DNA from: Bacteroidales bacterium
GTDB taxonomy: Bacteria > Bacteroidota > Bacteroidia > Bacteroidales > UBA932
Assembly: GCA_022648545.1 (NCBI GenBank)
Contig: JALCMP010000001.1
Span: 62,001 to 126,000 of the forward strand
Direction of reading: 5' to 3'
DNA length: 64,000 nt
The notes beneath the pieces were generated by a model that was not told where the DNA came from, did no database searches, and saw nothing but the letters and a program-made list of their open reading frames with translations. The position numbers and the translations under genes are program-made. This document shows positions 20,747 to 29,105 of the stretch, piece after piece (the first letter of the stretch is position 1; the number at the start of each line of letters is the position of its first letter).

Positions 20747-21520
20747 TCATTCTATATTTTTACGGAACATGGTTAGGAACTCCTTCATTCTCACATTGTC
20801 TTTTTTATCAATTATATCTTTAAGCCCCTCCAGAGAACCAATTATGCGTGACAACTGTTCGGGAGTATGGGGATTGAAAAGAATCTCGGTAAGTAAAAAA
20901 TCATCTTCGGAAGACAGGCCGCGTGCAATTGCCAGATGTTTCTTAAAAGTAGTGCCCGGGGCATCCATATGCTTCATAACGGAACCAAATACAAGCGTTG
21001 AAGCAAAAGGTATGGCAAGAGAATACGCAACAACTTCATCATGTTCGTCAAAAGTATATTCACATACGTTCAATTTAAGCTTGCCGAATATCTCCTTGAA
21101 AAAGGCTTTTCCAAGCCCGTCGGATTCCTTTATTATTATTGCATTCTCGGACTGCAGATTCCCCAGATTGGCAAAAGTAGGACCGAACATAGGGTGCGTT
21201 GAAACGAATTTCATTCCGGCAGTTTTATAAAAATCGCGCAATCCCGTTTTTACGGATGCAATATCTGAAAGAATACAATTCCTCCCAAGATAAGGGAGTA
21301 CTCCCTCAAAAGCCCCGATAGTAGCATTAAGCGTCACGCAATTTATCACCATATCCGGAGCAAATCCTTTTATCTCGTCCAAAGAGGAAAAACGCAGTGC
21401 ATTATAAACGAAGCGCATTTTTCTTGCATCCGGTTCATATACCGCAACATCATAGTCAAAACTCAGCAAATCTGTAAAGAAAGACCCCATCTTACCGGCT
21501 CCCAATATCAATATATTCAT
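20747..21520 (-). CDS. tyrA: Prephenate dehydrogenase family protein (tyrosine synthesis)
   Basis: This 257-residue enzyme oxidatively decarboxylates prephenate (or arogenate) on the way to tyrosine. The N-terminal Rossmann motif is ILILGAGKMGSFF. Later come DIASVKTGLRDFY and FVSTHPMFGPTF, the conserved HPMFGP substrate-site motif, then an all-helical C-terminal domain. It is shorter than TyrA proteins that carry an ACT regulatory domain, so allosteric tyrosine inhibition through ACT is not expected. It is the last gene of the leftward operon pheA-aminotransferase-aroF-tyrA. The 16-nt gap from the preceding stop supports co-transcription and control by the pheA attenuator. Confidence 0.93.
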   Translation of the reverse strand: MNILILGAGKMGSFFTDLLSFDYDVAVYEPDARKMRFVYNALRFSSLDEIKGFAPDMVINCVTLNATIGAFEGVLPYLGRNCILSDIASVKTGLRDFYKTAGMKFVSTHPMFGPTFANLGNLQSENAIIIKESDGLGKAFFKEIFGKLKLNVCEYTFDEHDEVVAYSLAIPFASTLVFGSVMKHMDAPGTTFKKHLAIARGLSSEDDFLLTEILFNPHTPEQLSRIIGSLEGLKDIIDKKDNVRMKEFLTMFRKNIE

Positions 21521-21536
21521 AATATCAATCCGTAAA

Positions 21537-22598
21537 TTATTCTATTTTGAGCTGGACCTTAACCGACTCTTCGTGTATAAGCTTCATAATATCGGATACG
21601 AACTCCTCTCCGAGGTTCATCTCCATCCCCATTGATGCACGCCCCTTTAGGATATCGCTGTATCTGCCGGTCTGAAGTACCGGCATATTATGTTCTTTTT
21701 TATACACTCCGATTTCACCGGAAATCCTCATACGCTTTGCAAGAAGTTCCAGAATCCTTTCATCTATTTCATCTATTTGCTTTCTCAGAAGTACTATGCT
21801 TTCGGTTGTCTGTACATTATCCTTAACCACCAGCATCTTAAGAATATAGTCCAGGGCATCGGGCGTAAGCTGCTGGGAAGCATCGCTTAAGGCACAAGAT
21901 GGATTGCAGTGGGATTCTATCATAAGGCCGTCGAAATTAAGATCGAGAGCCTGCTGCGAGATGGGAGCTATGAGTTCTTTTTTCCCTCCGAGATGGCTGG
22001 GATCGCAAAAAACCGTCATCGACGGAAATCTGCGTTTTAATTCTATGGGGATGTGCCATAACGGAGCATTCCTGTATATATTCTTATCGGGAGAACTGAA
22101 CCCCCTGTGGATAACACCAAGTTTTTTAAGCCCGGCATTATAAAGACGCTCGAGTGCCCCTATCCACAATTCAAGATCGGGATTTACAGGATTCTTTACA
22201 AGGATAGGGACGTCTACGCCTTTGAGGGCATCTGCAAGTTCCTGAACTGCAAAAGGGTTGGTAACAGTCCTCGCCCCTATCCACAATATGTCCATGCCCG
22301 CTTTCAGAGCCTCAAGAACATGATGCGGAGTAGCAACTTCGGTTGCAAGCAACATCCCTGTTTTTTGTTTTACCTCCTTCATCCATGCAAGACCTTCCGA
22401 ACCTACGCCTTCGAAGCATCCCGGCTTGGTTCTGGGTTTCCAAATGCCGGCCCGGAATATCTTTATCCCTTTTGCGGCAAGACCTTCCGCCGTAGAAAGA
22501 ACCTGTTCCCTGCTTTCAGCACTGCATGGTCCTGCTATTACCACCGGTTTCCCGGATGAAGGACCCGCAAGATCTAGTTTTTCAATTTTCATTTCCAT
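21537..22598 (-). CDS. aroF: Bifunctional DAHP synthase / type II chorismate mutase
   Basis: About 353 residues from the ATG at 22598. The open frame continues 25 codons upstream into the preceding gene, but homology begins at MEMKIEKLDLAG. Residues about 10-255 are a DAHP synthase of the KDO8P-synthase-like (type I-beta) group: VVIAGPCSAES, FRAGIWKPRTKPGCFEGVG, VKNPVNPDLELW and VFCDPSHLGGKKE. They catalyse the first step of the shikimate pathway from PEP and erythrose 4-phosphate. Residues about 265-353 are an AroQ-type chorismate mutase (LLRKQIDEIDERILELLAKRM and VLQTGRYSDIL). The fusion order, synthase then mutase, is the Bacteroidota one. The gene starts 4 nt after the aminotransferase stop. 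Confidence 0.95.
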   Translation of the reverse strand: MEMKIEKLDLAGPSSGKPVVIAGPCSAESREQVLSTAEGLAAKGIKIFRAGIWKPRTKPGCFEGVGSEGLAWMKEVKQKTGMLLATEVATPHHVLEALKAGMDILWIGARTVTNPFAVQELADALKGVDVPILVKNPVNPDLELWIGALERLYNAGLKKLGVIHRGFSSPDKNIYRNAPLWHIPIELKRRFPSMTVFCDPSHLGGKKELIAPISQQALDLNFDGLMIESHCNPSCALSDASQQLTPDALDYILKMLVVKDNVQTTESIVLLRKQIDEIDERILELLAKRMRISGEIGVYKKEHNMPVLQTGRYSDILKGRASMGMEMNLGEEFVSDIMKLIHEESVKVQLKIE

Positions 22599-22602
22599 TG
22601 TT

Positions 22603-23838
22603 TCAATTATCTTTTTTATTATAAATACCGCAGTTTTCCACTCTCTCGAGCGCTTTCCCAAGCATCTGAACATTGCAGCAAAGAGAAATCCTTATATAAT
22701 CGTCCCCTTCACTTCCGAAAATAAAACCGGGGGTCAGAAAGACATGAGATTTATAAAGAAGAGTATCACAGACTATTTCTCCCGAAGACTTGTTTCCTTT
22801 TCCGCAACGGTTGCAGTCCTTTACCCGCCCCCACAGAAACAGTCCCACCTGACCCGGTCTTACATCTGCACCCGCAGCCTCAAGTATCCTGACAGCCAAA
22901 TCCTTTCTTTCAGAATAGATTCTGTTCATGGTTCCATGCCATTCTTCCGGAGATTCCAGCGCTTTCACCGCGGCAAGCTGCATGGGCCGGAACATTCCGG
23001 AATCCATATTGCTTTTCACCCTCAGGATCCATTCAACGAATTTGCGGTTGGAAGCAAGCATGCCGATTCGCCATCCCGGCATATTAAATGTTTTGCTCAT
23101 GGAATTAAGCTCAATGCAAATATCCTTCGCCCCCGGAACGGAAAGTATGCTGAGAGGCCTTTCGGTAAGTATGAAACTATATGGATTATCGTGACATATT
23201 ATTATTTTATGCTTCCTTCCGAACTCTACGAATTTACGGAAAACTTCTTCAGATCCGTCGGCCCCCGTAGGCATATTGGGATAATTGCACCACATAAGCT
23301 TTATGCGCGAAAGATCCAGCATTCCGCGGGCATCCTCTCTCTCAAGTTCTTCAAAATCGGGATACCATCCGTTCTCTTCCTTAAGAGGATAATAATGGAC
23401 ATCGGCCCCAACCAGTCTCGAAACGGAAGTGTAGGTAGGATATCCGGGATTGGGAACAAGGACTCCGTCTCCAGGATTCACAAAAGCCATGGAAATATGC
23501 ATTATCCCCTCCTTGCTACCCATAAGAGGCAATATCTCGCATTTCGGATCGAGTTCCACACCATATTCCCTCTTATAAAAATCCGAAAATCCGTTTCTCA
23601 GCTCCGGAATCCCGGTATAAGGCTGATATCCGTGGGAATCAGGCAGACGCGCCGATTCAGACAGAGCCGTCACGCTCTCCATGGAAGGCGGAAGATCCGG
23701 ACTCCCTATACCAAGATTTATAACATCCGCACCTTCGCCGTTCATTGCGTCTATTTCCTTACGCTTTACGGAAAAATAATATTCCTTTACGTTTCCGATT
23801 CTATCGGCCGGTGAAAAATCAATGGAATCCTGTATCAT
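22603..23838 (-). CDS. Class I/II PLP aminotransferase of the aromatic operon
   Basis: 411 residues from the ATG at 23838. The open frame extends further, but the family N-terminus is the segment DFSPADRIGNVKEYYFSVK. Fold type I aminotransferase motifs are INLGIGSPDLPP, GYQPYTGIPELR, LVPNPGYPTY, WCNYPNMPTGA and the PLP-lysine motif NSMSKTFNMPGWRIG. The sequence resembles LL-diaminopimelate/aspartate-type enzymes. Its position between pheA and aroF suggests that it transaminates phenylpyruvate and hydroxyphenylpyruvate, or prephenate, but substrate choice cannot be read from the sequence. A long frame on the opposite strand (22426-23814) is a shadow. Confidence 0.9.
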   Translation of the reverse strand: MIQDSIDFSPADRIGNVKEYYFSVKRKEIDAMNGEGADVINLGIGSPDLPPSMESVTALSESARLPDSHGYQPYTGIPELRNGFSDFYKREYGVELDPKCEILPLMGSKEGIMHISMAFVNPGDGVLVPNPGYPTYTSVSRLVGADVHYYPLKEENGWYPDFEELEREDARGMLDLSRIKLMWCNYPNMPTGADGSEEVFRKFVEFGRKHKIIICHDNPYSFILTERPLSILSVPGAKDICIELNSMSKTFNMPGWRIGMLASNRKFVEWILRVKSNMDSGMFRPMQLAAVKALESPEEWHGTMNRIYSERKDLAVRILEAAGADVRPGQVGLFLWGRVKDCNRCGKGNKSSGEIVCDTLLYKSHVFLTPGFIFGSEGDDYIRISLCCNVQMLGKALERVENCGIYNKKDN

Positions 23839-23878
23839 ATCAAAAAAATTAAATTCAAATAAAACCCAAGAAGTCAAA

Positions 23879-24778
23879 TCAAAAACCCCGACGGCCGTCG
23901 GCATACTCTCCCATTATCTTAAAATCGCTGCAAAGGGGCATTATTGCATCTACGGCCTGAAGATACCTTCCGTAATCCTCAAAAAGGACATTTATATAAA
24001 ACTGGTATTCCCACTCCTTGCCTACTATCGGAAGCGACTGTATCATGGAAAGATTCATATCATAAAACGACAGCACCGACAGTACTTTTGAAAGACTTCC
24101 GGCAACATGGGGAAGTGTAAAAACGATGGAACTCTTGTTTATCCACTGGTTGGTACCGGAATTACCGGCTGCGACGCCTCTTTTCTCATCACTGGAATAC
24201 AATTCCTTTATTACATCAGTTGCAGCTTTTTTATTTGCAACTACGAGGAATCTTGTAAAATTACATTTGTTGGTTTCTATTCCCTCGGCAAGGACTTCCA
24301 GTCCGTACATTTTTGCAGCGGCAGAGGGACATATAGCGGCATGGTCCTTCAAACCGTTATCTTTGATCCATTTCGCACTGCCGGCAGTATCTTCTTTTTC
24401 CACAAGCTTTACGTTACCCAAAGCTACAAGAAAATTCTCGCACTGCATAAAAGCCATAGGATGAGAATTTATTTCTTTTATATCTTCAATCCCCGTCCCC
24501 TTTAAAGCAACAAGAGAATGGGAAATCCTGAGTTTATATTCACCCACGATAACCAGATTCTTTTCCCTTATTATCCTGTAATTTTGAAGTATGCTTCCGG
24601 CAATGGTATTTTCCACGGCCATGACACCCAGAACGCCGGGATCAACGGCCACGTTATCGGCTACCTGGGAAAAGGTATCGCAATCTATATTTTCTATTTC
24701 ATCTCCGCAGAAAAAATCACGGGCAGCAATATAATGATTACAGCCGCCTATACCTTGAATAGCTACTTTTCTTTTCAT
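23879..24778 (-). CDS. pheA: Prephenate dehydratase with ACT domain
   Basis: This 299-residue enzyme converts prephenate to phenylpyruvate. Residues 1-185 form the dehydratase domain: KVAIQGIGGCNHYIAA, GVMAVENTIAGSILQNYRI (with the ENT motif), ISHSLVAL, SAAAKMYGLEVLAEGI, and KCNFTRFLVV with the catalytic TRF. Residues about 205-290 are an ACT domain (SIVFTLPHVAGSLSKVLSVL and LSMIQSLPIVGKEWEY), which normally binds phenylalanine for feedback inhibition. It is first in the four-gene Phe/Tyr operon. Its ATG lies only 13 nt beyond the stem of the attenuator terminator and immediately after the U tract, so expression depends on antitermination. There is no chorismate mutase domain here; that activity is on the aroF product. 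Confidence 0.96.
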   Translation of the reverse strand: MKRKVAIQGIGGCNHYIAARDFFCGDEIENIDCDTFSQVADNVAVDPGVLGVMAVENTIAGSILQNYRIIREKNLVIVGEYKLRISHSLVALKGTGIEDIKEINSHPMAFMQCENFLVALGNVKLVEKEDTAGSAKWIKDNGLKDHAAICPSAAAKMYGLEVLAEGIETNKCNFTRFLVVANKKAATDVIKELYSSDEKRGVAAGNSGTNQWINKSSIVFTLPHVAGSLSKVLSVLSFYDMNLSMIQSLPIVGKEWEYQFYINVLFEDYGRYLQAVDAIMPLCSDFKIMGEYADGRRGF

Positions 24779-24780
24779 AT

Positions 24781-24819
24781 AAAAAAAATTAAGGGGCCCC
24801 CGCTTCCGCGAGAGCCCCT
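24781..24819 (-). terminator. Attenuator terminator in the pheA leader
   Basis: On the minus strand AGGGGCTCTCGC-GGAA-GCGGGGGCCCCT (24819 to 24792) forms an unbroken 12-bp stem with two G-U pairs, followed by TTAATTTTTTTT. It is Rho-independent in form but sits upstream of pheA, with the pheA ATG at 24778, so it acts as an attenuator rather than an end-of-gene terminator. Confidence 0.93.
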
Positions 24820-24859
24820 GTTATTTCAATCACAACCCGATTTACATACGAACTCCCGC
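24808..24859 (-). promoter_or_regulatory. Predicted antiterminator pairing of the pheA attenuator
   Basis: GCGGGAGTTC (minus strand, 24859-24850, inside leader codons 23-26) can pair with GGGCTCTCGC (24817-24808), the left arm of the terminator, giving 10 pairs including three G-U. Forming it destroys the terminator. A ribosome stalled in the Phe/Tyr run leaves this segment free. One that reaches the leader stop codon covers it. Confidence 0.75.
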
Positions 24860-24925
24860 TCCTACCTTATGGTAAAAGTAAAAGAAGAAGTAAAAAGGCG
24901 AATATATAAATTGAGAATGACTCAT
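24842..24925 (-). CDS. pheL: Phe/Tyr-rich attenuator leader peptide of the pheA operon
   Basis: This 27-residue leader peptide starts with ATG at 24925 and ends with TAA at 24844-24842. It contains six Phe and four Tyr, including the unbroken run FYFFFYFY (residues 11-18), followed by HKVGAGVRM. It lies about 15-20 nt after the predicted transcription start and before a strong terminator that precedes pheA. The peptide itself needs no function: its translation senses charged tRNA-Phe and tRNA-Tyr. This is the layout of the enterobacterial pheA leader, but here both amino acids are represented, in line with the operon making both. The symbol pheL is used by analogy. It is too short for ordinary gene callers. 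Confidence 0.88.
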   Translation of the reverse strand: MSHSQFIYSPFYFFFYFYHKVGAGVRM

Positions 24926-24944
24926 ATTTTCCGTTTGTACCTGA

Positions 24945-24975
24945 CAAAAGTATATATAATTTGCACAAGTGCAAA
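24945..24975 (-). promoter_or_regulatory. Consensus promoter of the pheL-pheA operon
   Basis: On the minus strand TTTG (24975-24972), exactly 19 nt, then TActTTTG (24952-24945): both boxes match the Bacteroidota consensus. The expected start site, near 24940, leaves a short leader before the pheL ATG at 24925. Confidence 0.85.
24960..24975. promoter_or_regulatory. Perfect palindrome TTTGCAC-AA-GTGCAAA, candidate operator
   Basis: A 7-bp perfect inverted repeat with a 2-bp spacer overlaps the -33 box of the pheL promoter and lies between the divergent pheA and aroB units. A dimeric repressor bound here would block the leader promoter. No regulator gene is in the window, and the sequence does not match the TyrR box (TGTAAA-N6-TTTACA). 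Part of the symmetry comes from the -33 TTTG itself. Confidence 0.45.
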
Positions 24976-25013
24976 ACAAAAAACGCTTTTTTCTTTTAAG
25001 TATTAAAATTTTC

Positions 25014-25021
25014 TACATTTG
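25014..25021 (+). promoter_or_regulatory. -7 box (TAcaTTTG) of the aroB-aroDA-aroC operon
   Basis: An exact TAnnTTTG match about 22 nt before the GTG at 25044. The -33 position (TTCT at about 24991) is poor. Its place inside the longer open frame argues against the upstream ATG at 24969 and for the GTG start of aroB. Confidence 0.5.
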
Positions 25022-25043
25022 TCCGGACAAACGATTTGTAAGA

Positions 25044-26120
25044 GTGAACACAATTTATACAAGCAAGGATTTAAAAGGATTAGCGTCCAAAATAGGGCCC
25101 GGACACAGAGTTTTCGTAATAATAGATAACAATCTGAAACAATATTACCGTTATTTCGAAAATTACCACATGCTGGAAATAGAAACTTCGGAAATAAAAA
25201 AGACCATGGAAACGGTTTCATGCATATATTCCAGACTTCTAAATGAAGGTGCCGACAGAAATAGTTTCATTCTGGGAGTAGGCGGAGGCATAACAACCGA
25301 CATTGCCGGTTTTGTAGCCTCAACTTATAAACGCGGAGTTAAATTCGCATTTGTACCCACCACTCTTTTAGCACAGGCCGATGCATCCATAGGAGGGAAA
25401 AACGGAGTCAATTTCCAATCCTACAAGAATATGATAGGAACAATCACGCAGCCCGAATGGATATACGAATGCCCTGAAGTTCTTCAGACCCTGACCCCAA
25501 GGGAATTCAGGGCAGGAATAGCGGAAATGCTGAAGACATTCATTTTATTCGACGGAGCGGCATATTCCCAGGCGGCGGCATATTTTTCGGAACTAAACGA
25601 CTTACTTAAAAAACAAGGTTCCTGCATATACAACGGAGAATTCTACAAAAACGACATCCTTGAAAAGCTGCTGGGGCTGTGCGCAGGCTACAAGGGCAGA
25701 ATAGTAGAAAAAGATCCGAACGAAAAGGGAGAGCGCCGACTGCTCAATCTGGGCCATACTTTCGGCCATGCGATTGAAAAAATCTTCGGCGATGCCGGAA
25801 AAGACATAATGCACGGAGAAGCCGTAAGTATCGGAATAATACTGGCTGCAAAAGTAGCTGCAAGCCTCGGCAGAACGAAAGAGTCTTTCGTAATCCGTCT
25901 GAAGGAAGACTTTGAAGCAGCCGGACTGCCTTCGGAATTACCTCCGGACCCTGTTTCGGGGAAAAAGCTTATGCTCTCCGGCCTTATGGAGGCAATAAAA
26001 AAGGACAAAAAAATCGACGGCGACTTCATACATTTCATATTGCCTGAAGACGCCGGAAGGGCCGAAGATATAAAACTGGAATTGAAAAAACTGGAGTCCA
26101 TAGCCAATGATTTGTGTTAG
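25044..26120 (+). CDS. aroB: 3-Dehydroquinate synthase, GTG start preferred
   Basis: 358 residues from the GTG at 25044. The frame extends to an ATG at 24969, but those 25 residues are not AroB-like and would precede the probable promoter. The enzyme makes 3-dehydroquinate from DAHP with NAD and a divalent metal. Visible motifs are ILGVGGGITTDIAGFVASTYKRG (NAD-binding GGG and the D..GF.A motif), FVPTTLLAQADASIGGKNGVN, AGIAEMLKTFILFDG and the metal-site segment LLNLGHTFGHAIE with MHGEAVSIGI. It is first in aroB-aroDA-aroC. Its end overlaps aroDA by 14 nt. It is transcribed away from the pheA operon. Confidence 0.94.
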   Translation: MNTIYTSKDLKGLASKIGPGHRVFVIIDNNLKQYYRYFENYHMLEIETSEIKKTMETVSCIYSRLLNEGADRNSFILGVGGGITTDIAGFVASTYKRGVKFAFVPTTLLAQADASIGGKNGVNFQSYKNMIGTITQPEWIYECPEVLQTLTPREFRAGIAEMLKTFILFDGAAYSQAAAYFSELNDLLKKQGSCIYNGEFYKNDILEKLLGLCAGYKGRIVEKDPNEKGERRLLNLGHTFGHAIEKIFGDAGKDIMHGEAVSIGIILAAKVAASLGRTKESFVIRLKEDFEAAGLPSELPPDPVSGKKLMLSGLMEAIKKDKKIDGDFIHFILPEDAGRAEDIKLELKKLESIANDLC

Positions 26121-28065
26121 TATAAGCTATAACGATTACGACAAATGCCTTAAAACTCTGCATAATGCAGAAATGGCGGAAATACGGGCGGACCTTTGCG
26201 AACTTTCCGAAACAGAAATTGCCAGTCTTATAAAAGGAACTCGCGGCAATGTAATAATTACATGCCGCATAGCCGGAACTTCGATAAAAAAAGCAAAGAG
26301 CATGCTTTGCGCCGGTATAAATGCAGGGGCGGGATATGTTGACATAGAAACGGAAGCCCCGGACGAATTCGTTTCGGAAATAAGAGGACTCGCCGCCGCA
26401 AAAGGGTGCAGATTGATTATTTCCCATCACGACTTCGAAAAAACTCCGTCTTTAACGGATATGGAAGAAATAGCCCGCGATTGTCTTTCGAAAGGCGCCG
26501 AAATAATAAAAATAGTAACGACGGCAAACAATACTGAAGAAGCTGTCCGAACTCTGGCACTCTATAAAAGCAAAAATCTCAAGGATATGCTGTCGGGATG
26601 CGGAAAAAACAAAAATGCAGGACTGGTTGCTTTTTCAATGGGGGAAAAAGGAAAATTCACACGTTATACCTCGCTTCTTATGGGATCTCCTTTTTCATAC
26701 GCCGCTCCCGAGGAAGGGAAAAATACGGCGCCCGGACAGTTTACCCGGAAACAGCTTGAAAATCTTTTTAAGGAAGGCAAATTCGTTTTCAAACACCCTG
26801 TCATAAAAAATAAGGTAAGCATTCCTTCATCAAAAAGCATTGCACAAAGAGCAATCGTAGCCTCCGCACTTGCAAAAGGTGTTAGCCTTCTCAAAAACTA
26901 CTCTCCGTGCGGAGATTCAGAAGCTGCCCTGAACTTAATAAAGTCTCTGGGATGTGAAATTAAAAAAGAAGGGTCATCTGAAAAAGATAAATATACAATA
27001 ACGATACAAAGCCCGGGAGCGACAAAACTGCAAGCCGGAGAAACCCTTTTTACGGGAGAATCGGGATTTTTAACAAGACTTATCATTCCTGTAGCATGCG
27101 CCCTGTACGGGAAACCCGTTTCAATAAACGGAACAGGCAGTCTTAAAAACAGGAAGCTGGAAGAAACATCCGACGCATTGCGTAATGCAGGAGTAAAATT
27201 CACATGCGATTCAGACCATCTTCCGTTCAAAATACTAAGCGGAATTACAAATAATGAAATATCCTTAAACGGGCGGTCGAGTTCGCAAATAATCTCCGGA
27301 TTCCTTTATGCGATGCCGCTACTCGGGTCCGGATCAGTAATCAGGGTAAAAAACGCATCCAGCCTGCCATATATATTTATGACATTATCGGTACTTAAAA
27401 AATACGGAATCATCTTCGGTGATACTGAGACATCCGAAGTCCTTAATAAAATAAAAAAAGGACTGGATATAAAAATAAGCGGGAAAGGCAAATACGAACC
27501 ATGCAATATATTTCTTGAAACGGACTGGAGTTCGGCCGCCTGCTTTACTGTCGCACAAGCGATCTCTAAATCGCTTAACATGCCTTCATTTATAATAGAA
27601 GGACTGACCGATGACAAAACACAGGCCGACGGCGCAATTCTTGATGTCATAAAAGCATGCGGACCGGAACTTAAGAACTTTAACTTCGATGCCACCGACT
27701 GTCCCGATCTTTTTCCCGCCCTTACCGTACTGGCATGCTTTTGTCATGGAAAAAGCCGGATAAAAGGCGTAGACAGACTCTATGAAAAAGAGAGCAACAG
27801 GGCCGAGGCTATTTATACCGAATTTACCGCACTTGGAGCCGATATTGATATAAAAGACGACATAATGTATATAAAAGGCGGAGAATTACATGGCGGAAAC
27901 GTACACTGCCACAACGATCACCGCATGGCAATGAGCCTTATCACTGCGTCATGCTTCATTAACGAGCCTGTTTATCTGGACAATATATACTGCATAAATA
28001 AATCATTTGCATCCTTCCTTGATAATTTCCTTATATTGAGAAACAAAACGACAAAACAAAAATAA
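26107..28065 (+). CDS. aroDA: Fused type I 3-dehydroquinate dehydratase - EPSP synthase
   Basis: A 652-residue two-domain enzyme. Residues 1-about 215 are a type I (Schiff-base) dehydroquinase: EIRADL (25-30), LIISHHDFEKTP with His108 in the place of the catalytic His, EIIKIVTTANN with Lys135 as the Schiff-base lysine, MGEKGKFTRYTS with Arg186, and APGQFT near 208. Residues about 225-652 are EPSP synthase: KVSIPSSKSIAQRAI (Lys243, Arg248), GESGFLTRLIIPVA, LSGRSSSQ-type segment NGRSSSQIISGFLYA, LYEKESNRAEAI and HNDHRMAMSL. The protein thus does steps 3 and 6 of the shikimate pathway. It overlaps aroB by 14 nt, and aroC starts in its stop codon (TAATG). aroE and aroK are not in the window. The symbol aroDA is descriptive. 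Confidence 0.93.
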   Translation: MICVSISYNDYDKCLKTLHNAEMAEIRADLCELSETEIASLIKGTRGNVIITCRIAGTSIKKAKSMLCAGINAGAGYVDIETEAPDEFVSEIRGLAAAKGCRLIISHHDFEKTPSLTDMEEIARDCLSKGAEIIKIVTTANNTEEAVRTLALYKSKNLKDMLSGCGKNKNAGLVAFSMGEKGKFTRYTSLLMGSPFSYAAPEEGKNTAPGQFTRKQLENLFKEGKFVFKHPVIKNKVSIPSSKSIAQRAIVASALAKGVSLLKNYSPCGDSEAALNLIKSLGCEIKKEGSSEKDKYTITIQSPGATKLQAGETLFTGESGFLTRLIIPVACALYGKPVSINGTGSLKNRKLEETSDALRNAGVKFTCDSDHLPFKILSGITNNEISLNGRSSSQIISGFLYAMPLLGSGSVIRVKNASSLPYIFMTLSVLKKYGIIFGDTETSEVLNKIKKGLDIKISGKGKYEPCNIFLETDWSSAACFTVAQAISKSLNMPSFIIEGLTDDKTQADGAILDVIKACGPELKNFNFDATDCPDLFPALTVLACFCHGKSRIKGVDRLYEKESNRAEAIYTEFTALGADIDIKDDIMYIKGGELHGGNVHCHNDHRMAMSLITASCFINEPVYLDNIYCINKSFASFLDNFLILRNKTTKQK

Positions 28066-29105
28066 TGAACACTTACGGCAACATACTAAGAATTTCCATT
28101 TTCGGAGAATCACATGGTAAACTTATAGGGGTCGTAATGGACGGCATTCCGGCAGGGATTCCCATATGCGAAGACGATTTTCTTAAAGATCTCGGAAGAA
28201 GGAAAAGCGGAGGGTTCGGAACTACGCCGCGGATAGAAAGAGATCTTCCGAATATAGTGAGCGGAGTTTACGAGGGCCGGACAACCGGTGCGCCACTTAC
28301 CGTAACTTTCGAGAACGGCAATACTCATTCGGAAGATTATTCCACTTTCAGGCAAAGGCCGCGTCCCGGACACGCTGATTTCGTTGCCGGGGTAAAATAT
28401 AAGGGATTCAACGATATAAGGGGAGGAGGACATTTCAGCGGAAGAATGACCCTTTGCCTTGTTGCCGCCGGGGTCGTTGCAAAAAAAATAGCCGGAGGAA
28501 TAACCTTCACCGCAGGATTGACGGAACTGGGAGGAATTGCCTTGCCCGGAGGCAAATGCATAACAAGCGAAGATATCAGCGAACATTTCCCGGAAGAATG
28601 GACCGATGCCCTAAATGATGCATCGAGAGCCGGAGATTCCATAGGAGGCATAATAGAATGCAAATGTAAAAATGTTCCCGTAGGGCTTGGAGAACCCTTC
28701 TTCAACTCAATCGAATCAGGAATAGCACATCTCGTCTTTTCGGTACCGGCTACAAGAGGAATAGAATTCGGAGACGGATTTGCGGCAGCCGGCATGAAAG
28801 GGTCGGAACACAATGATTGCCTTGCCGACGGAGAGGGACATACGCAAAAAAACGGTGCCGGAGGAATAAACGGAGGCATAAGCAACGGCAGCCCTATAGT
28901 TTTTAGGGTAGCCGTCAAACCTACTTCCAGTATAGCGGCCCTGCAGAAAAGTTATGATTTTTCCCAGGATGCCGTTTGCGAATTTTCTGTTCCGGGCAGA
29001 CACGACACATGCGTAGCACTGAGATGTCTGCCCGTAATAGAAGCTGCTGCGGCCATTACGATAGCAGACAACTTATTGATGAATAATATTTTTGTTAAAA
29101 TTTAA
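28065..29105 (+). CDS. aroC: Chorismate synthase
   Basis: This 346-residue enzyme removes phosphate from EPSP to give chorismate using reduced FMN. It begins NTYGNILRISIFGESHGKLIGVVMDGIPAG, with the GESHG signature. Other motifs are RRKSGGFGTTPRIERD, RPRPGHADF, DIRGGGHFSGRMT (substrate/FMN site), FSVPATRGIEFGDGF and GINGGISNGSPI, with RHDTCVALRCLPVIEA at the end. All core parts are intact. Its ATG overlaps the aroDA stop (TAATG), so translation is probably coupled. It is last in the operon; no clear terminator was seen before the next promoter. Confidence 0.97.
   Translation: MNTYGNILRISIFGESHGKLIGVVMDGIPAGIPICEDDFLKDLGRRKSGGFGTTPRIERDLPNIVSGVYEGRTTGAPLTVTFENGNTHSEDYSTFRQRPRPGHADFVAGVKYKGFNDIRGGGHFSGRMTLCLVAAGVVAKKIAGGITFTAGLTELGGIALPGGKCITSEDISEHFPEEWTDALNDASRAGDSIGGIIECKCKNVPVGLGEPFFNSIESGIAHLVFSVPATRGIEFGDGFAAAGMKGSEHNDCLADGEGHTQKNGAGGINGGISNGSPIVFRVAVKPTSSIAALQKSYDFSQDAVCEFSVPGRHDTCVALRCLPVIEAAAAITIADNLLMNNIFVKI

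Follow-up and report, generated by a model that had tools for sequence, protein, structure and literature searches.

A predicted phenylalanine and tyrosine leader-peptide attenuator ahead of the pheA-aminotransferase-aroF-tyrA operon in Bacteroidales and its relatives in Bacteroidota

The enterobacterial pheA leader (pheL) encodes a leader peptide with Phe codons and forms alternative antiterminator and terminator structures before pheA; to our knowledge, pheL has no Tyr codons. In the enterobacterial ilv and thr leaders, one peptide senses several amino acids of a common pathway. Amino-acid operons are also controlled through a terminator by T-box-type sensors. For Bacteroidota, Table 1 of PMC2864571 lists Bacteroid-trp (RF01692, Bacteroidete tryptophan peptide leader RNA) as a cis-regulatory candidate. 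The accessible text of PMC9723704 describes a structured 5' element before pheA of Flavobacterium psychrophilum that is conserved in other Flavobacteriaceae, names hisG as well, and speaks of "strong clues" of leader peptide attenuation ahead of amino-acid operons. In the accessible part of PMC7366714, short ORFs in the 5' UTRs of Bacteroides thetaiotaomicron are only mentioned as reminiscent of leader peptides. No description of a Phe/Tyr leader in Bacteroidales was found by title or abstract opening, a search that left subscription papers mostly uncovered, and the Lyubetsky/Seliverstov surveys (2007, 2010) may include Bacteroidota. A preliminary description of the locus reported here had known of no experimentally described case in Bacteroidota. 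Within the accessible parts of PMC9723704 and of the source for Bacteroid-trp RF01692, neither is seen to test the mechanism; both nevertheless foreshadow the case, and the statement needs that qualification.

The locus lies in the window, by which we mean the whole 64,000-nucleotide stretch of Bacteroidales DNA that was analyzed. Inspection of the sequence placed the leader region on the minus strand (Table 1). The preliminary description had proposed a TTTG-N19-TACTTTTG promoter and had left out the strand; the two elements are present on the minus strand with a spacer of exactly 19 nt, and the promoter is called against what we take to be the Bacteroidota consensus, TTTG-N19-TAnnTTTG. Nineteen bases also separate TACTTTTG from the start of the leader ORF. 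The 27 codons with six Phe and four Tyr that had been described for this ORF were found again, as were the 12-bp terminator and a segment able to pair with its left arm. By eye, no clear Shine-Dalgarno sequence precedes the leader ORF in the window. The order of terminator, T8 and pheA ATG also stands, but T8 does not adjoin the stem: the three bases TAA lie between them, a gap slightly atypical of an intrinsic terminator. Between the end of the T tract and the pheA ATG there are only two bases. When positions 24935-24778 were folded, the energy was -53.3 kcal/mol, compared with a mean of -33.8 in dinucleotide shuffles (z -5.07; 0 of 200 shuffles as good), and the fold included a long 1:2 hairpin, formed by the Phe/Tyr run and the final codons of the ORF, as well as the terminator 3:4.

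Pfam matches for all four genes bear out the order pheA-aminotransferase-aroF-tyrA that had been proposed behind the leader. For tyrA, matches to the NCBIfam prephenate dehydrogenase models were below the cut-offs of those models. Next to the Phe/Tyr operon and divergent from it lie aroB, fused aroD-aroA and aroC, which brings much of the shikimate pathway together in one place.

Table 1. Features of the leader region and its gene neighborhood in the window, with the related leaders found before aroF
Feature	Position in window	Strand	Evidence or remark
Leader region, reading down to the pheA ATG	24975-24778	-	Sequence inspection
-33 element TTTG	24972-24975	-	Bacteroidota-type promoter, predicted
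-7 element TACTTTTG	24945-24952	-	Exactly 19 nt after TTTG
Leader ORF MSHSQFIYSPFYFFFYFYHKVGAGVRM, 27 codons plus stop	24842-24925	-	6 Phe and 4 Tyr
Run of Phe/Tyr codons (11-18), forming strand 1 of hairpin 1:2	24872-24895	-	Fold and sequence
Segment 2 GCGGGAGTTC, inside the last ORF codons	24850-24859	-	Partner of segment 3 in the antiterminator, or else of segment 1
Segment 3, terminator left arm	24808-24819	-	Fold and terminator search
Segment 4, terminator right arm	24792-24803	-	Fold and terminator search
Terminator hairpin	24819-24792	-	12 bp including two G-U, GGAA loop
T8 tract	24781-24788	-	3' of the terminator, TAA in between
pheA, prephenate dehydratase	23879-24778	-	Pfam PF00800, 1.9e-50; ATG at 24778
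Class I/II aminotransferase	22603-23904	-	Pfam PF00155, 4.8e-57
aroF-type DAHP synthase fused to type II chorismate mutase	21537-22673	-	Pfam PF00793, 5.1e-39; PF01817, 5.9e-23
tyrA, prephenate dehydrogenase	20747-21520	-	Pfam PF02153, 2.9e-08, over its cut-off
aroB, fused aroD-aroA, aroC	24969-29105	+	Divergent
Phe/Tyr leader before aroF (L239, L240, L245, L246)			G116/G151/G234/G313 family

Leader ORFs were sought in the region upstream of pheA, with the criterion of an ORF that has at least six Phe/Tyr within ten codons. The loci came from three PheA searches: the window's genome with 40 relatives (match in 19 of the 41), named genomes (the best 80 of at least 578 confirmed loci were used), and 296 genomes of the phylum (match in 258; the best 30 were made into loci). 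Sixty longer, hand-chosen stretches were also taken, 23 of them from genomes already sampled. Left out before the ORF count were L105 (the place of L001) and L054, L061, L087 and L101, which have less than 250 nt upstream; the fragments L020-L024 were left out before the counts. A leader ORF was present in 132 of 164 upstream regions: 18/19 among the relatives, 69/76 among the named genomes (from the best 80 of at least 578) and 45/69 in the phylum set. The same uncorrected set of 164 gave 5 hits on the antisense strands and 79 in 3280 dinucleotide shuffles, and a chance ORF was rejected on these two counts. Correction removed L016 (pheA at a contig edge) and L155, L156 and L157 (from the genomes of L130, L131 and L133) and recounted L057 as without a leader, so that the leader ORF stands upstream of pheA in 129 of 160 distinct testable Bacteroidota loci, the window's own included. 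The distance for L132 is ~39 nt overestimated (contig edge). Because many of the loci are kin, these counts are not independent events.

Among the named genomes with the leader are Phocaeicola vulgatus, Bacteroides fragilis, B. xylanisolvens, Parabacteroides, Alistipes and Paraprevotella. All 131 scored leaders (L057 left out, two doubled genomes included) have at least two Phe and at least two Tyr, with means of 5.5 and 4.3. The preliminary description had given as its refuting case that relatives keep the sequence and lose the frame or the Phe/Tyr codons; what was seen in these 131 leaders is the opposite. Within the run, A occurs 562 times at codon position 2 compared with 104 and 94 times at positions 1 and 3, in a frame picked for its Phe/Tyr content. 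In the window's genome, a search for seven successive Phe/Tyr codons returned 19 matches and its reversed control 10, and among ten further places inspected there by eye none had a start codon, a Phe/Tyr run and a terminator arranged like the pheA leader.

Within the genus of the window, the leader ORF was found at 13 of 13 loci with pheA. Of 25 genomes in this genus, that of the window among them, 12 have no pheA match, and these include G002 and G007 at 95-96% completeness; genomes of this kind are possible Phe auxotrophs. Five genomes of the same phylum, G054, G106, G173, G196 and G323, are listed outside the class and have the leader, and four of them have PheA scores far above those of other genomes of their own family. 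Perhaps the operon moved together with its leader into these genomes.

By the T-tract rule, a terminator was found in 111 of the 117 loci with a leader ORF (L105 left out here too; L057 and L066 among the 111 were judged false). Pairing of segment 2 with segment 3 was compared between own and swapped partners in 107 loci, L057, L066, L085 and L007 being left out for false or truncated terminators. The mean was -14.96 kcal/mol within a locus and -10.43 kcal/mol after swapping, and the best of 5000 permutations reached -11.35 kcal/mol. The window's own 2:3 duplex was -16.1 kcal/mol, and its partner, which came no higher than rank 35 among the 107 swapped loci, is not special; its terminator, at -24.6 kcal/mol, is much stronger than this antiterminator duplex. 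In 103 of 109 loci (L057 and L066 left out, as in the ribosome folding below), the best ungapped 2:3 helix was 6 bp or longer; there were 74 different core pairs. For the 1:2 duplexes, own partners gave -14.52 and swapped partners -11.32 kcal/mol.

The preliminary description had proposed a check for covarying terminator and antiterminator stems, and in an alignment of 26 loci hand-picked for spread both were found to covary. In the 3:4 helix, 98.6% of cells were paired and both sides had changed in 5 of 8 pairs; in the 2:3 helix, 92.3% were paired and both sides had changed in 3 of 7. The 2:3 helix was above shuffles on three of five measures and not on the other two (104/500 and 491/500). 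Column 150, in the shared arm, changes jointly with both its terminator and its antiterminator partners. The outer 1:2 helix (ACATA with TATGT) was 92.3% paired, with both sides changed in 3 of 5 pairs, which is modestly above shuffles.

To follow co-transcriptional models, folding was stopped at segment 3. With a 12-nt ribosome footprint, the 2:3 helix formed in 109 of 109 loci when the ribosome was stalled near the end of the run, in 10 of 109 when it stood at the stop codon, and in 77 of 109 when no ribosome was placed. A 9-nt footprint gave 109, 14 and 77, and a 15-nt footprint 102, 14 and 77. Thus, a stall would favor read-through and completion of the leader peptide would favor termination. 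Since 2:3 forms in so many loci when no ribosome is present, the protective 1:2 hairpin, that is, termination by default when translation fails, which is a classic feature, does not appear general; in the window's own leader, however, 1:2 prevails when no ribosome is present. When the right arm of the terminator was included at equilibrium, the terminator formed at all 11 ribosome positions tried in the window, so that the switch would have to work during transcription. The pairing and folding models predict that a competing antiterminator using the left arm of the terminator is part of the element.

These results bear on whether the ORF is read at all. An untranslated, conserved and pyrimidine-rich RNA structure in which the ORF is incidental would explain the strong conservation of the RNA and the pairing of the run with segment 2, and it would fit the lack of a clear Shine-Dalgarno sequence by eye, although a missing Shine-Dalgarno sequence is what one expects in Bacteroidota, which as a rule translate without it. 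We consider this reading very improbable, because a start codon with an open Phe/Tyr frame recurs in 129 of 160 loci and is rare in shuffles, A sits mainly at codon position 2 (in the frame picked for Phe/Tyr), and at 99 of 109 loci the position of the stop codon is such that no 2:3 helix forms while a ribosome stands on it. That a T-box or another direct sensor of uncharged tRNA or free amino acid acts here, with an accidental ORF, is likewise extremely improbable: such sensors do act on amino-acid operons through a terminator, but no T-box or riboswitch was matched in the window at gathering scores or, up to E 5, in the 12 pheA loci among 17 sources searched.

It could also be asked whether the hairpin before pheA mainly hides the pheA start, and so acts on translation and not on transcription. 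In the window, the T tract ends almost at the ATG, which would fit this. In some relatives, however, hairpin and pheA are well separated: counted from the leader start, their positions are 96-119 and about 354 in L113, 109-135 and 268 in L118, and 110-138 and 316 in L126. T-rich tracts lie 3' of the stem (the search rule required them). We therefore consider an effect mainly on translation quite unlikely.

Phe and Tyr codons are interleaved in the run. Among 109 distinct runs (L057, L155, L156 and L157 left out), 605 of 893 neighbors differ, compared with 470.9 +/- 14.0 after shuffling and a shuffled maximum of 515. As a result of the interleaving, a shortage of either amino acid would stall the ribosome at nearly one place. 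Both residues occur within the last four of the run in 104 of the 109 distinct runs, a count that is weak when taken alone since the shuffled mean is 98.9. The alternation of UUY and UAY may partly serve the pairing with segment 2, and this leads to a reading in which the attenuator responds in practice to one amino acid, say Phe, while the other codons are kept for UAY/UUY pairing. The run does double as strand 1 of a hairpin with the own-partner preference given above, and the modest covariation of the outer 1:2 helix indicates that its bases are constrained by pairing. Even so, we think a single input unlikely: no scored leader falls below two Phe and two Tyr, lineages with an unlike segment 2 still keep both residues, and both recur at the end of the run, if with the weakness just noted. 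The composition of the 131 leaders thus supports the earlier reading, made from the sequence, of one leader that would sense both tRNA-Phe and tRNA-Tyr. Trp was tried as an input and rejected, as W makes up 0.8% of leader residues, occurs in 23 of 131 leaders and is not notably enriched.

Among the 60 longer stretches (W counted here with F and Y), a relative of aroF lies 3' of pheA in 37 of 37 loci with the leader, compared with 3 of 23 without it. In the three leaderless loci with aroF, pheA is in an open frame of 681-736 aa; G323 and G173 are other genomes with a long frame, but have the leader. Several leaderless loci (for example L047, L053 and L171) have an open frame reaching up to pheA, so that pheA is not the first gene there. 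In one family, of which three stretches were tested, the operon reads pheA-aroF-aroA-aroC; no tyrA was seen in the genes covered, yet the leader keeps Tyr. In another family, the leader of G116, G151, G234 and G313 precedes a copy of aroF that is co-oriented with pheA and located 2.4-2.7 kb ahead of it; no leader lies directly before pheA in G116 and G313, the two checked of these four. G151 and G313 have further aroF copies without a leader (L238 and L237). It seems that the leader is tied to the aromatic operon as a whole rather than just to pheA. The parts of the switch are in place, they are conserved, they covary, and they are located together with the operon.

From these sequences and folding models we infer that the leader is translated, that transcription terminates and that the element responds to Phe and Tyr, and we propose the following sequence of events. 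RNA polymerase would start about 10-15 nt ahead of the leader ORF, as judged from the predicted promoter, and a ribosome would trail it. When charged tRNA-Phe or tRNA-Tyr is scarce, the ribosome would stall in the interleaved run, which is strand 1; segment 2 would then be free to pair with the newly made segment 3, the terminator 3:4 would be blocked, and pheA-aminotransferase-aroF-tyrA would be transcribed. When both charged tRNAs are ample, the ribosome would reach the stop codon and mask segment 2, the terminator would form, and transcription would end before pheA. On the strength of the sequence comparison and the folding, it is highly probable that the element in the window attenuates transcription by way of the ribosome and takes both Phe and Tyr as inputs. 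Judging from their leaders, many relatives very probably share the switch, so that Phe and Tyr would be made only when either is scarce.

Short ORFs of a similar kind were seen before other operons. At hisG of relatives, 10 of 12 loci (L214-L217 and L220-L225) have a short upstream ORF in which eight codons include four or more His, for example MIHHHHHGYPFGGR and MRFYSRHRVHHHHHHLSG; from their sequences these ORFs are likely his attenuators. No His-rich ORF was seen at the hisG of the window's own genome (L219), where the flank is short. At trpE, a short upstream ORF with WWW was present in 3 of 10 loci (L229, L230 and L231), and these are perhaps of the Bacteroid-trp kind. The His and Trp leader ORFs suggest, at the level of sequence, a wider habit of leader-peptide switches in Bacteroidota.

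A broader proposal is somewhat more probable than not. The two-input attenuator would be ancestral in the class Bacteroidia and placed at the head of the operon; its interleaved Phe/Tyr run would report scarcity of either amino acid and set the shared aromatic pathway, with both inputs kept where no tyrA was seen (pheA-aroF-aroA-aroC), and it would be one of a wider set of leader peptides (His at hisG, Trp at trpE) in a phylum that translates largely without Shine-Dalgarno sequences. If this is correct, some of the most abundant bacteria of the gut would use a ribosome-read RNA switch as a main control of their genes for Phe, Tyr and the shikimate pathway. Leader switches of this kind that lack a Shine-Dalgarno sequence would require close coupling of transcription and translation in Bacteroidota, and would offer a ready test of that coupling. 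The element would be a conserved sensor of two amino acids for which the papers searched gave only hints and with no Rfam family at the window or the 12 pheA loci tried.

In the comparison with Rfam, no family was over its cut-off at the leader in the window or in the 12 pheA loci. Phe_leader (RF01859) had no match in the window; three of the 12 pheA loci reached 29.8-31.3 bits with it, where the cut-off is 55. Leu_leader scored 33.8 bits against 50 (L013) and Thr_leader 33.1 against 55 (L108); the other matches below cut-off were to unrelated RNAs. Bacteroid-trp RF01692 matched neither the window nor any of the 12 pheA loci; its only match was the trpE locus L229, with 35.8 bits against 49.

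Like enterobacterial pheL, the leader described here has a peptide with Phe codons and antiterminator and terminator alternatives, and stands before pheA. Unlike pheL, it interleaves Tyr with Phe, its operon also includes a DAHP synthase and tyrA, and its score to Phe_leader is below membership. It resembles the ilv and thr multi-input leaders in that a single leader peptide would sense more than one amino acid of one pathway; the codons there are for branched-chain amino acids or Thr and Ile, whereas here they are for the aromatic Phe and Tyr. Bacteroid-trp, as far as its source was accessible, is likewise a leader-peptide element proposed for an amino-acid operon of this phylum, with Trp codons and trp genes there and Phe/Tyr here. 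The F. psychrophilum element concerns the same gene in the same phylum and, on the accessible description, is probably the same element, although that part of PMC9723704 gives no leader sequence, Tyr codons or mention of Bacteroidales. It appears that the attenuation mechanism is of the textbook kind and that its dual Phe/Tyr version is uncatalogued. As read from its sequence, the leader is a widespread element of known mechanism, and the dual input is its notable feature.
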